Assembly (NCBI GenBank): GCA_938045585.1
Contig: CALIAU010000025.1
Coordinates: 1 to 64,000 of the forward strand
Origin: an uncultured Saprospiraceae bacterium
GTDB taxonomy: Bacteria; Bacteroidota; Bacteroidia; Chitinophagales; Saprospiraceae
Length of the DNA: 64,000 nucleotides
Direction: 5' to 3'
Positions within the stretch are counted from its first letter, which is position 1. Each line of letters starts with the position of its first letter. Made by a program: the position numbers and the translations under genes. The notes beneath the pieces are model-generated. The model was not told where the DNA came from, ran no database searches, and saw nothing but the letters and a program-made list of their open reading frames with translations. Shown here in pieces: positions 8,957 to 14,994 of this stretch.

Positions 8957-9066
8957 TTCCGTTCTTCCGTTAGTCCGTTAGTCCGTTAGTCCGTTAGTCT
9001 GTTCTTCCGTTAGTCCGTTAGTCCGTTAGTCCGTTCGTCTGCTCCGTCCTGCCTGCAGGCAAGCCG
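8957..9066. repeat. TCCGTTAG octamer array plus GC-rich hairpin
   Basis: Tandem octamers TCCGTTAG build a 40-base unit at 8961-9000, which is duplicated at 9001-9040 with one mismatch. It is followed by CCTGCCTGCAGGCAAG (about 9049-9064). The element fills the gap between the symporter stop and the beta-helix gene start. It does not code for protein in any convincing frame. Confidence 0.85.
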
Positions 9067-9070
9067 CTCC

Positions 9071-10786
9071 CTAGTCTGCCGCACCAAGCCCACCCTTGTC
9101 CATAAACACACTTAAGACACTAGCAAAAATTATCGTTAGTCCCGTTCCAATCAGATTTAACCATAAAAAAGAAAAATGCTCTTCTACATAAATAAAGTTA
9201 TACCATAAATAGATTACAATACATTCCGCTAAGAGGGCGCCAAAAAAAACAGCATTTGCCTTAATCCATTTCATATAAAAGGCGACTAGGAAAATTCCCA
9301 GGATAGTGCCATAGAAAACCGAACCAATGATATTTACAAATTGAATTAGATTTTCTGCAAGCGTACCAAAGGCTGCAAAAAGCATGGCCAGTACCCCCCA
9401 CATAAGCGTGAGTAACTTAGATGCTTTTAGATAATGCGCCTCATCCGCATTTGGATTGATGGAGCGTTTGTAAATGTCTATGGAGGTAGTCGAACCAAGT
9501 GCATTTAATTCAGATGCGGTGGAAGACATAGCTGCAAAAAATATCATCGCAAGTAAGAGTCCTACCAATCCCTTAGGGAGATAGTTCAGTATGAAATTCA
9601 AAAAGATATAATCCTTGTCATTCGTTTCTATCGTGCTATCATAGCTTTTGATAATTTCCTTAGCATCTGTGCGTAACTGTTTTTCCTTTTCTGAACTTAG
9701 TTCGATCAATTTTTGTGAGTTAAGGATCTTGCTATCATCCTTGGATTCTTTTGCAGCCAGATAATCCTTGTACAGCGATTGCCTTTCATCGAATAAGGTG
9801 CTTAGTTCTTGTTCGGTATTCTTGTATGCATCAGAATATTCAGAAGCATAAATTTTTTCACTTACCTTCTCATTAAAAAAGATGGGCGGTTGTGTAAATT
9901 GGAAAAAGATAAATACAAGGACTCCAATAAATAGGATAAAAAACTGTAGAGGTAGTTTTAACATACCATTCATTATAAGTCCTAGACGACTGGCACGAAT
10001 ACTCTGTCCTGAAATATATCGCTGCACCTGCGATTGGTCTGTTCCAAAATAAGATAGAAAGAGAAAAACAGCGGCTAAGGATGTCCAGATATTATATCTG
10101 TCCTTCCAATTAAAGGACGTATCTATAACTTCTAGCTTTTCATTGGCATTTGCAATTTGTAATACCTCTCTAAACGAATAATCATCCGGCATAAAACTAA
10201 GCAGCAAGAAGAATATTATAATAAGACCAATAAAGATTATGGTCATCTGCAGTTTGTGTGTTACATGTACTGCCTTCGTGCCTCCTGAGACTGTATAGCC
10301 AATAGCGATAAGTCCAATGATCAGTGTGGTGAGGTTTAGGTTCCAACCCATAATGGATGAAAGCACTAATGCTGGGGCATATATAGTAATACCACAGGCG
10401 AGTCCTCGCTGTACTAAAAATAAAAACGCGGTCAAGGATCTTGTCTTAAGATCAAACCTTCCTTCTAGAAATTCATAGGCAGTATATACCTTCAATTTAT
10501 AAAACATTGGAATGAAAGTGATGCAAATGATAATCATTGCAACAGGGAGCATCAGGTAGAATTGTGCAAAACCCATCCCATCATTGTATGCTTGTCCTGG
10601 TGTAGAAAGAAAGGTAATTGCACTTGCCTGCGTTGCCATAACAGAGAGACCCACAGTCCACCATTTTGCCTCGTTTCCGCCGAGTAAGTAGCCTTCAATA
10701 TTTTTACTTCCCTTTGTTTTCCATATCCCGTATCCTACTACGGCAATGGTAGAACAAATTAATACAACCCAATCTAATACACTCAT
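9071..10786 (-). CDS. Sodium:solute symporter (SSS family)
   Basis: The 571-residue protein starts at the ATG at 10786 (MSVLDWVVL), one base short of touching the preceding small gene's stop; a start at 10822 would lie inside that gene. It is an integral membrane protein with about 13 helices and SSS motifs (GYLLGGNEAKWWTVGLSVMATQASAITFLS; GFAQFYLMLPVAM; FLSYFGTDQSQVQRY). A charged segment of about 90 residues (around 305-395, rich in E, K, D and S) interrupts the helices and is predicted to be coiled. The substrate is unknown; the operon links it to a deacetylase, so an amino sugar or its derivative is possible. Confidence 0.9.
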   Translation of the reverse strand: MSVLDWVVLICSTIAVVGYGIWKTKGSKNIEGYLLGGNEAKWWTVGLSVMATQASAITFLSTPGQAYNDGMGFAQFYLMLPVAMIIICITFIPMFYKLKVYTAYEFLEGRFDLKTRSLTAFLFLVQRGLACGITIYAPALVLSSIMGWNLNLTTLIIGLIAIGYTVSGGTKAVHVTHKLQMTIIFIGLIIIFFLLLSFMPDDYSFREVLQIANANEKLEVIDTSFNWKDRYNIWTSLAAVFLFLSYFGTDQSQVQRYISGQSIRASRLGLIMNGMLKLPLQFFILFIGVLVFIFFQFTQPPIFFNEKVSEKIYASEYSDAYKNTEQELSTLFDERQSLYKDYLAAKESKDDSKILNSQKLIELSSEKEKQLRTDAKEIIKSYDSTIETNDKDYIFLNFILNYLPKGLVGLLLAMIFFAAMSSTASELNALGSTTSIDIYKRSINPNADEAHYLKASKLLTLMWGVLAMLFAAFGTLAENLIQFVNIIGSVFYGTILGIFLVAFYMKWIKANAVFFGALLAECIVIYLWYNFIYVEEHFSFLWLNLIGTGLTIIFASVLSVFMDKGGLGAAD

Positions 10787-10787
10787 A

Positions 10788-10919
10788 CTATAATGACTTA
10801 AAATAAAAATAGATACTAGCAATCAATAGCACATTGGCTATTACAATCAAGGCATACCAATAATTCCACGATGGAAATAGAGGAACGGTACTGTCGGAAG
10901 TATCTACTTTTTTATTCAC
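10788..10919 (-). CDS. Small single-helix membrane protein, 43 aa, coupled to symporter
   Basis: This short gene starts with GTG at 10919, which overlaps the PIG-L gene's TGA by GTGA, and its TAG ends one base before the symporter ATG. The product has a polar head (VNKKVDTSDSTVPLFPS), an aromatic turn (WNYWYAL) and one membrane helix (IVIANVLLIASIYFYF). Small one- or two-helix proteins next to SSS genes are known in other groups as accessory subunits (DUF4212, DUF3311). I infer a similar role here. It could also be a non-functional spacer, but the two-sided coupling argues for translation. Confidence 0.72.
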   Translation of the reverse strand: MNKKVDTSDSTVPLFPSWNYWYALIVIANVLLIASIYFYFKSL

Positions 10920-13423
10920 GCTTTATTTTGTTTTAATGCTAAGATGTTTGAAAGTAATCTAAATGCGCCTGGAACACCTGCAGGTAATTCTCTAAACCAT
11001 GAAATACCTGTGTACACAAAGTAACCACTGCCGTGCGGAGCAATGAGCAAGGAACCATCCTTGGGATCTTCATTGACATCATTCATGGATAAGATTGCAG
11101 TATATTTACTGTCCCATTCATTCGGAAAATATAAGCCTCTTTCTTGAATCCAACCATCGAAATCTTTTGAGCTGATCTTATTTGGATAATGCAGGACCTG
11201 ATGCTCAGGAGCAAGTATGCGCACCTCCGCATTTTCATCAGATACTCTATCACGAGAAAGCTTTAAAGGGTAGGGTGCAAATTCATCTATATTCAGACCC
11301 CTTGTTGTGTTGTACTGAATGACAAGATTCCCTCCATTTTCAACATACTTAAGAAGCTCTTTCATTTTAAACTTTAACTCCTTCTTTGTATTCAAAGCTC
11401 GTATACCAATCATGATTGCATCATAGCCTTTTAGCGCTTCAGCGTTTAAAGTTTCAATGGGCAGATTAGTAACATTGTATCCGACCAATCGTAAACTTTC
11501 TGCAACCTTATCCCCAGCACCATCTATGTAGCCTATGTTTTCTGCTGCTGTTTCTAATTCTATCTTAACAATCTTTGACTTGGCAGGTACATTCACTGTC
11601 TGTTTAGTAATATGATCATAATCTATGACTATGGATTCTGTATGGATACTTGGATTGCCAGCAATATCTGCAGAGACAGCAATTTCAGCAATAGACTGTG
11701 CTTGCGGAGGAACTACTGTAAATTCAAAACTGGCCTCATCTCCCTTTTGTGCAATGTTGAAATTATGTGATGCAGGAGAAATCTGCCATCCGGTTCCCAT
11801 TGTTTGTAGACGTACAGTGCCTGTAACATTTTCTTTACCTGCTTTGACATAGGCTTTGACGACCTGTTTGTCATTTGTAGAGAAAAAGTACGAACCATTT
11901 TCTATGCGGACTGAGACTGGATTTACAATTTCTACGGGCTCTATCACCTCACCAGCTACTCGATCTGTATACTTATGTATGATGTCCTTCTGAAGTACAA
12001 CTGTTTCGCCATAAATATCCAATTCAAATTCGGCCTTTAGTTCCCGTGGTGTTTCTGCCATACCTATCTTCAATGGGTCATCCACATTATACATCCCAAA
12101 CTCGGCCTTATCATTTATCCAATATGGTTCTGAGGTTCGAAGATTAGGAACGGTCATAGTTTCAAACCATTTCATTTGAGCATTGTCTTCTAGGCTTTCG
12201 TTTACAGTCTTTTCCATCTGAGCAGTTGGTATGCGGATACTACGAATAGTGACAGGCACATTACTTCGATTAGTACATTCGATTGTAAGATCAGTTACAT
12301 CAGTAGGGGTGAGCGTCTGAGCATCTGCATAAACTTCCGCATATAGACCAAGACAAGATTCTATAATACGATCTACTTCAGATAATTTTATGTTTTTCCA
12401 GTAATCATTATCTATTCCGCGTATGAGGGAACGTATTTCTACGAGTTGCTTTACCGATTTTTGTGGTGCTAGATAATCATAGTCAGCAATCAGTGCATCC
12501 ATTTTCATTTGAATAGCCTTGCCTCCTTGTACACGAGTCCAAGTAGTGTTGATACCATCAAAAATATTTTCATTGTCTACTGGTGCTACCCCTTTTACTA
12601 TTTCTAGAAATTCAGTAGAGCTTCCTCTAGACCCTGTATTTCCCATGCCCTGACATTTATGCATACTTCTTGCCTCACTAGCAATTTCAGAATTTGATTT
12701 TCCTAATACTGGATAATAGACACCTATGTCTACGCGTGCCATTTTACTTTTGTCCACTTCAGCAAATTTTTCTCTACTACCATATCTCCACCATGAAGTA
12801 TTATAATACAACTTATTTACCTGCCAAGGTTCTGTATGTTTTAATTGTTCAGGGTAAACCGTACTATCGTTAGTAAGATCAAATGCTTCTATGGATAATA
12901 GTGCAGAAGAGGTATGATGTCCATGTGTTCTTCCTGCTCGTCTATGATCAAATCTATTGATAACTACATCCGGTTTGAAATTACGGATGATCCATACTAC
13001 ATCTTTGAGCACTTCTTCCTTATTCCAAATTCGGAGGGTCTCATCCGGATGCTTTGAGTAGCCAAAATCATTGGCGCGTGTAAAAAACTGTTTACCGCCA
13101 TCTATTTTCCTTGCCTCTAATAATTCTTGCGTACGCAAAACGCCTAATAATTCTTGAATTTCTAATCCAATGAGATTCTGACCGCCATCTCCTCTAGTTA
13201 GTGAAAGATAGGCTGTATTTGCTTTTACCTCATTTGATAGATAGGAAATCATCCTTGTGTTTTCGTCATCTGGATGGGCAGCGAGGTAGAGTGCTGTACC
13301 TAAGAAATTTAGTTTTTCTATAGCATGATAAATTTCACCAGAATTGAGTTGATTTGGTTTTTGTGCCTCTAAATGACTCGAAACGAGTAAAATCAGTAGT
13401 ATAAATATAACGATTCTTTTCAT
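10916..13423 (-). CDS. PIG-L (LmbE-like) family deacetylase, secreted
   Basis: The 835-residue protein starts at ATG 13423 (MKRIVIFILLILLVSSHLEA, a signal peptide); the longer frame to 13474 adds an unlikely leader. The PIG-L catalytic motif AHPDDE is near residue 43, followed by LTRGDGGQN and the metal-ligand region THGHHTSS. The middle region is beta-rich. The C-terminal part (about 620-820) resembles a class I glutamine amidotransferase-like/ThuA fold (GYDAIMIGIRALN, ENGGNLVIQYN). PIG-L enzymes are zinc-dependent N-deacetylases of GlcNAc-type substrates. It is the first gene of the operon with the micro-protein and symporter. Confidence 0.9.
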   Translation of the reverse strand: MKRIVIFILLILLVSSHLEAQKPNQLNSGEIYHAIEKLNFLGTALYLAAHPDDENTRMISYLSNEVKANTAYLSLTRGDGGQNLIGLEIQELLGVLRTQELLEARKIDGGKQFFTRANDFGYSKHPDETLRIWNKEEVLKDVVWIIRNFKPDVVINRFDHRRAGRTHGHHTSSALLSIEAFDLTNDSTVYPEQLKHTEPWQVNKLYYNTSWWRYGSREKFAEVDKSKMARVDIGVYYPVLGKSNSEIASEARSMHKCQGMGNTGSRGSSTEFLEIVKGVAPVDNENIFDGINTTWTRVQGGKAIQMKMDALIADYDYLAPQKSVKQLVEIRSLIRGIDNDYWKNIKLSEVDRIIESCLGLYAEVYADAQTLTPTDVTDLTIECTNRSNVPVTIRSIRIPTAQMEKTVNESLEDNAQMKWFETMTVPNLRTSEPYWINDKAEFGMYNVDDPLKIGMAETPRELKAEFELDIYGETVVLQKDIIHKYTDRVAGEVIEPVEIVNPVSVRIENGSYFFSTNDKQVVKAYVKAGKENVTGTVRLQTMGTGWQISPASHNFNIAQKGDEASFEFTVVPPQAQSIAEIAVSADIAGNPSIHTESIVIDYDHITKQTVNVPAKSKIVKIELETAAENIGYIDGAGDKVAESLRLVGYNVTNLPIETLNAEALKGYDAIMIGIRALNTKKELKFKMKELLKYVENGGNLVIQYNTTRGLNIDEFAPYPLKLSRDRVSDENAEVRILAPEHQVLHYPNKISSKDFDGWIQERGLYFPNEWDSKYTAILSMNDVNEDPKDGSLLIAPHGSGYFVYTGISWFRELPAGVPGAFRLLSNILALKQNKA

Positions 13424-13679
13424 GTTAGGTATAATAATTATTTGTTCTATTCTAAATATAAACAAGCTATGCATTACGCAAATAAATATATGATAATTCT
13501 AAGACCTATTTTTTTATAAACGCTTGTAATTGAGCAACTTTAGAGTGAGAAACTTAATTTTAGCACACACCCATAAAGAGTACAAATAGATGTTAGTATT
13601 ATATGTAATGACTGCGACTTTTGTTTGCAGTGGATTAATAGTAGTTGGATCCAGATTAACCGAGAAAAGATAGAACAAA

Positions 13680-14878: not shown

Positions 14879-14994
14879 GCCTGCGTGTACGAGAAGGACC
14901 TGCCTGCGTGTACGAGAATGACCTGCCTGCGTGCGCAAGAATGACCTGCCTGCGTGCGCGAGAAGGACCTGCCTGCGTGCGCAAGCAGGCAGGT
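14879..14994 (+). repeat. 23-bp GC-rich tandem repeat ending in a hairpin
   Basis: The unit GACCTGCCTGCGTGYRCRA plus GAAK starts at 14897, 14920, 14943 and 14966, with a partial copy from 14879. The last copy forms a perfect inverted repeat: ACCTGCCTGC (14967-14976) pairs with GCAGGCAGGT (14985-14994). There are no unique spacers, so it is not a CRISPR array. Confidence 0.9.

Follow-up and report, generated by a model that had tools for sequence, protein, structure and literature searches.

A single-helix small protein encoded beside a SiaT-like symporter in Bacteroidota, and its probable role as a symporter subunit

What does a 43-residue membrane protein do when its gene is enclosed, almost without a spare base, between those of a secreted deacetylase and a sodium:solute symporter (SSS)? 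This question is raised by a stretch of 64,000 nucleotides (nt) from an uncultured Saprospiraceae bacterium (contig CALIAU010000025.1, positions 1 to 64,000, assembly GCA_938045585.1), hereafter called the window, in which a PIG-L family gene, a small gene and an SSS symporter gene follow one another. A preliminary description of this DNA had stated that the three genes lack spacing, the PIG-L stop overlapping the small-protein start as GTGA and the TAG of the small gene ending one base before the symporter ATG, and direct reading confirmed both junctions; the strand, which that description did not give, is the minus strand for each of the three. Our comparisons indicate that the small proteins form a real, uncatalogued and widely conserved family, whose members probably serve an SSS symporter of the Bacteroidota as a subunit. 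The features of the locus are as follows.

10916..13423, minus strand: PIG-L protein gene (ATG at 13423, TGA 10918-10916), 835 residues, secreted, three domains
10788..10919, minus strand: small membrane protein gene (GTG 10919-10917, TAG 10790-10788), 43 residues, single helix
9071..10786, minus strand: SSS symporter gene (ATG 10786-10784, stop at 9071), 571 residues, SiaT-like
10916..10919, minus strand: overlap of PIG-L stop and small-protein start, shared GTGA, read directly
10784..10790, minus strand: junction of small protein and symporter, TAG-T-ATG with a single base (10787) between, read directly
13454..13482, minus strand: candidate Bacteroidota-type promoter, TTTG-18-TATATTT, a pattern match ~30 nt 5' of the PIG-L start, graded weak because the pattern is no commoner in the window than expected by chance

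The small gene and the company it keeps

Judged by its sequence conservation, the 43-residue frame is a genuine gene under purifying selection. The encoded protein (VNKKVDTSDSTVPLFPSWNYWYALIVIANVLLIASIYFYFKSL) has a counterpart of 43 residues with 74% identity, flanked by the two identical junctions, in sister genome G001, the sole genome of the same genus that was met. Between these two frames the proportions of synonymous and nonsynonymous differences (pS and pN) are 0.59 and 0.157, giving a pN/pS of 0.26, a ratio that is biased downwards because pairs were chosen at >60% identity; independent of that choice are the 35-residue small proteins of three Flavobacterium-type loci (L087, L093 and L094), which are identical despite a pS of 0.5-0.7. 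In the window protein the motif P-x-F-x-S-W-N-x-W-Y is followed by one hydrophobic helix, and W18 and Y22 are invariant among 66 aligned relatives. Outside the W and Y residues, the alignment has a short polar N-terminus, often with PPxFxSW, and the lone helix ends in FTxxF or similar. Family members range from ~30 to 54 residues, each with one helix. Scanning the 66 members against Pfam and NCBIfam gave no convincing model match, the hits at E values up to 0.05 being scattered weak ones to unrelated families; DUF4212, DUF3311, DUF485, DUF997 and MetS were absent from the hits at E <=0.05, and DUF3149, which matched the small protein at E 0.027, was below its cut-off.

The small gene keeps to the symporter rather than to PIG-L. 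Loci were collected by the symporter alone from named genomes (Saprospiraceae, Flavobacterium, Pontibacter, Tenacibaculum, Maribacter, Marivirga, Zobellia, Persicobacter and others), and because the set consists of the 80 best matches, near relatives weigh heavily in it. In all 80 loci the small gene lies directly upstream of the symporter, with gaps of -4 to 61 nt in 79 and of 190 nt in one. The PIG-L gene is upstream as well in 68 of them, once ~2 kb off, and the small gene is present in the 12 that have no PIG-L nearby. Similarly, in a sample drawn mostly with the profile of the small protein itself (L041-L056 entered it on account of a symporter noted near PIG-L), the symporter follows at once in 104 of 107 true small-protein loci, with gaps of <=88 nt and with L054, L119 and L129 as exceptions. 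When other genes come between PIG-L and the small gene, the latter remains at the symporter, again with one exception, L054. Those symporter paralogues in the window's own genome that could be delimited carry no such upstream frame, and the small-protein profile gave no convincing match around any of the paralogues (best E 1.3). The preliminary description would have been undone by neutral rates in the small frame or by the lack of a conserved small frame between PIG-L and SSS genes in relatives; the ratio of 0.26 is far from neutral, and relatives across Bacteroidota do conserve the frame.

In some genomes the two genes are far apart. Four genomes of genus g122 (L271-L274) carry an intact small frame ~15 kb from the symporter, and these small genes have 89-97% identity, a pS of 0.16-0.33, a pN of 0.02-0.06 and, in the informative pairs, a pN/pS of ~0.07-0.17, one pair being left out as too close to judge. 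The distance is 108 kb, on the same contig, in G331, and upstream of the symporters examined (G331, G084 and G095) there is no separate copy of the small frame. Intact, selected copies 15-108 kb from the symporter argue against a mere leader, since a frame whose sole service was to the translation of its neighbour would not persist at such distances, and they suggest that the small gene would act in trans where it is distant.

The presence of the three genes was further counted in a sample of 395 genomes of the phylum. Profile matches to the small protein occurred in 127 genomes, 18 of which were set aside as probably false, leaving 109; the rejected genomes comprise 15 of g119, mostly with weak matches inside frames of 420-450 residues, together with G104, G127 and G370. 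Three of the set-aside loci were fetched (L139, L144 and L148), and these have no symporter or PIG-L nearby. Among the 34 symporter genomes without a profile match, 28 were inspected: a local search recovered the small frame upstream in 19, and a different or strongly diverged short helical frame occupies the place in five (four of family f57, plus G138). The f57 loci (L248, L251, L252 and L255) have a short helical frame without the W/Y motif just upstream of the symporter, which may be a replacement or a strong divergence of the small gene.

The symporter is found in all 109 genomes with the small protein, compared with 143 of the 395 overall, and that these counts ignore shared ancestry is one of several points that weigh against a partnership of the small protein with the symporter. 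The remaining four of the 28 inspected genomes, G219 and three of g123, lack the small gene, and their PIG-L and symporter genes adjoin (L231; L243, L245 and L247), being 20 nt apart or overlapping by 4 nt; from these losses it follows that the small gene is not strictly indispensable, and the lineages concerned are natural experiments on its role. In addition, L054 keeps the small gene beside PIG-L, 810 nt from the symporter. Finally, when 182 pairs of small protein and symporter were analyzed for co-variation, the top scores equalled those of clade-preserving shuffles, so that no contact is deduced from it.

The symporter and the PIG-L protein

The symporter scores 226.3 bits with TIGR00813 (cut-off 184), which places it in the SSS superfamily (TC 2.A.21 in the transporter classification), and its nearest solved structure is SiaT (5nv9, E 5.5e-42). 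SiaT is the Na+/sialic acid symporter of Proteus mirabilis (5nv9/5nva). The LeuT-type fold of solved SSS members is apparent in a structural model of the relative at L043, where the small-protein stop is naturally read through in frame and both proteins are in one chain: the model matches SiaT with Z 43.2 over 465 residues and a root-mean-square deviation of 2.3, followed by SMCT1, NIS and SGLT, a match that covers the symporter part and not the small helix. The small-protein helix occupies residues 18-44 of this model, with a predicted local distance difference test score (pLDDT) of 86-89, and the linker has a pLDDT of 37-57.

In the HMMER alignment, R135, the carboxylate ligand of SiaT, aligns with A130 of the window symporter, and R127, one turn from A130, is kept in 177 of 182 relatives. 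In view of this difference, we do not call the protein a sialic acid transporter. SiaT S345 aligns with A424, and the Na2-site serines (S342 and S346 of SiaT) correspond to S421 and S425, which are kept in 154 and 142 of the 182 relatives, respectively, the others having G or A. Between window residues ~305 and 390, the relatives contain an insert of ~75-90 residues, modelled as two long helices, which SiaT lacks; from SSS topology, this insert would lie on the periplasmic side. Downstream of the symporter, loci L151-L230 contain a convergent DUF2911-like gene in 48 of 80 cases and a same-strand Gfo/Idh/MocA-like oxidoreductase gene in 14 of 80, both named from sequence reading. In the window, ten copies of an 8-bp unit, TCCGTTAG, occupy positions 8958-9039, beginning ~30 bases past the symporter stop.

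The 835-residue protein scores 56 bits with Pfam PIG-L (gathering cut-off 28.2) and consists of an N-terminal signal-peptide-like segment, an MshB-like domain, a beta-sandwich middle and a ThuA/GATase1-like C-terminus. Its sequence has no match among those of the PDB, and the domains came from a fold search with a model of pLDDT 92, which matches MshB with Z 22.3 (residues 39-294) and GATase1-like folds with Z ~16-17 (626-835). Across 73 orthologues there is little or no variation in the metal motifs AHPDDEN and HGHH, A48-H50-P51-D52-D53-E54 and H167/H170 being invariant, and because of this conservation the protein is likely to be catalytically active. MshB, Mca, BshB and the diacetylchitobiose deacetylases have the deacetylase fold and metal motifs in common with it, whereas the window protein is secreted and has two extra domains. 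It falls below the equivalog cut-offs of Mca (58.5 bits vs 277), MshB (23.7 vs 224), BshB1 (23 vs 182) and BshB2 (19.7 vs 195). In Persicobacter (L226, genome G458), the PIG-L match begins at query residue 107, and the N-terminus is possibly truncated or diverged.

How closely is this protein linked to the other two? Across the 395 genomes, PIG-L and the symporter occur together in 110, the symporter alone in 33, PIG-L alone in 11 and neither in 241 (Fisher p ~7e-54, a value that ignores ancestry). The 33 symporter-only genomes belong mostly to the large family f43, in which the symporter, ~40% identical, is accompanied by the small protein with no such PIG-L in the genome; the f43 symporter may have another substrate. 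Of the searchable genomes in which PIG-L and the symporter are not neighbours, 10 of 11 have PIG-L elsewhere, and it is therefore still tied to the system. In some loci, genes for a DinB-like secreted protein, a phosphatase-like protein and others separate PIG-L from the small gene; these vary from lineage to lineage and so are uninformative as a clue to the substrate. One such gene, at 2725-3235 of L043 in the sense orientation, encodes a DinB-like protein with a signal peptide (named from sequence reading). DinB-fold proteins include thiol transferases, and the DinB-like protein might have a bearing on the substrate. Taken together, PIG-L is often associated with the system in function without being obligatory for it, and most lineages do have the three-gene unit. 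The three-part unit of the preliminary description is nevertheless too strong a notion: it extends to the 68 loci of the symporter-side set with PIG-L upstream, and does not extend to the 12 without PIG-L nearby or to f43. Elsewhere in the window, a 23-bp unit is repeated 4.8 times at positions 14879-14989, inside several overlapping small open reading frames.

Role of the small protein

We propose that the single-pass small protein works with the symporter, most likely as an accessory subunit that packs on it for folding, stability or function, and we hold this to be probable. The small protein would bind the symporter in the membrane, would aid its folding, stability or activity, and would have an effect on transport, and the tight gene order would couple the translation of the two and keep their amounts matched. 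The secreted PIG-L protein would act as a periplasmic zinc deacetylase or amidase that removes an acyl group, probably from an N-acyl amino-sugar compound, and the symporter would import the product with Na+. The support for this path from deacetylase to importer comes from linkage and co-occurrence, on which PIG-L may make what the symporter transports. A more ambitious proposal, that of a "deacetylate and import" machine throughout the phylum, with an obligate small subunit, a symporter hairpin (placed in the periplasm) that docks PIG-L, and a single assembly that both cuts an N-acyl amino-sugar compound and imports the product, the substrate being new to SSS transporters, appears improbable to us.

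Known systems offer both a precedent and a caution: the small protein is analogous to MAP17 and to CbrX, with no sequence relation to either being detectable. MAP17 (PDZK1IP1) is a single-helix auxiliary subunit of human SGLT2; it contacts transmembrane helix (TM) 13, and full activity and stability depend on it (PMC10803289). Like the small protein, MAP17 has one transmembrane helix beside a transporter of the SSS fold (SGLT2 or SGLT1; SLC5, SSS, LeuT fold); however, it is eukaryotic and not co-encoded, and its binding has been demonstrated, whereas that of the small protein is something that we infer. A search of PDB chains with the small-protein profile returned no MAP17 chain at E up to 10, a search in which so short a protein can be missed. 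Among bacteria, CbrX packs on TM3 and TM8 of the SLC5 domain of CbrA and is seen bound in a cryo-electron microscopy map (PMC13022988), and in Pseudomonas cbrX lies upstream of and overlaps cbrA, to which it is translationally coupled (PMC6591292, PMC13022988). The likeness to the window locus is that a small frame overlaps the start of an SLC5-family gene or directly adjoins it; the differences are that CbrX is a two-helix hairpin of ~58 residues, dispensable in a growth test, with a sensor kinase as its partner, whereas the present family has ~30-54 residues and one helix. The CbrX parallel also serves as a warning, since cbrX translation rather than the peptide has been reported as what the expression of CbrA depends on.

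Other small membrane proteins whose genes adjoin those of SSS or neurotransmitter:sodium symporter (NSS) transporters are DUF4212, DUF485 (YjcH), DUF997 (YhdT) and MetS, the last an NSS partner, and the SSS partners among DUF3311, DUF4212, DUF485 and DUF997 have, as far as known, two helices. The family described here has the same placement as these small partners and differs from them in having one helix and no model match. DUF3311 is encoded with the pyruvate symporter MctP (PMC9100948). The core suggestion of the preliminary description, that of a small partner in the membrane for an SSS transporter, is well supported by the conservation, selection and symporter linkage of the 43-residue protein, which is not DUF4212 or DUF3311.

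The alternatives differ in what they ask of the peptide. If the small frame were mainly a translational-coupling device, ribosomes would be passed on to the symporter start and the peptide would matter little. The frequent one-base or overlapping junctions fit this explanation, as do the reports that CbrA expression in Pseudomonas needs cbrX translation and not the peptide sequence (PMC6591292) and that growth on histidine persists in a strain lacking CbrX (PMC13022988). Set against them are the conserved amino-acid sequence (W, Y and helix) with its low pN/pS, the intact, selected small gene far from the symporter in several genomes, and the existence of gaps of 40-190 nt, which make coupling unlikely as the principal function; a coupling role and a protein role can nevertheless coexist. 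A protein role need not be that of a constitutive subunit, and the small protein might instead regulate the symporter or its turnover, for example by shielding it from a membrane protease, by handing it over to one or by altering its specificity, as single-helix small proteins such as AcrZ, MgtS, MgtR and MgtU do on other transporters (review PMC10710835). The steady one-to-one adjacency across the phylum suits a subunit better, which is a weak argument, and we regard such a regulator as unlikely.

A role as membrane partner of the secreted PIG-L protein, or as its anchor, would account for the GTGA overlap in the window and for L054, with its small gene beside PIG-L and away from the symporter. 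However, the small gene stays with the symporter where the PIG-L gene is elsewhere, genomes of family f43 contain the small protein but lack such a PIG-L, and lineages without the small protein retain PIG-L. On this distribution, the anchor explanation is largely refuted, and we give it very little credence.

Implications for symporters of the Bacteroidota

SSS transporters have long been regarded as single-chain proteins, and in the open-licence literature we found no description of a unit of PIG-L, small protein and SSS symporter. If the small protein is indeed a subunit of the symporter, an arrangement of the SGLT2-MAP17 type would also exist in bacteria, apparently of independent origin, including in tractable hosts such as Flavobacterium. 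In addition, a function would be named for an uncatalogued family of ~30-54 residues, a size often missed by gene finders, and a handle would be gained on the substrate of a widespread pair of secreted deacetylase and importer.

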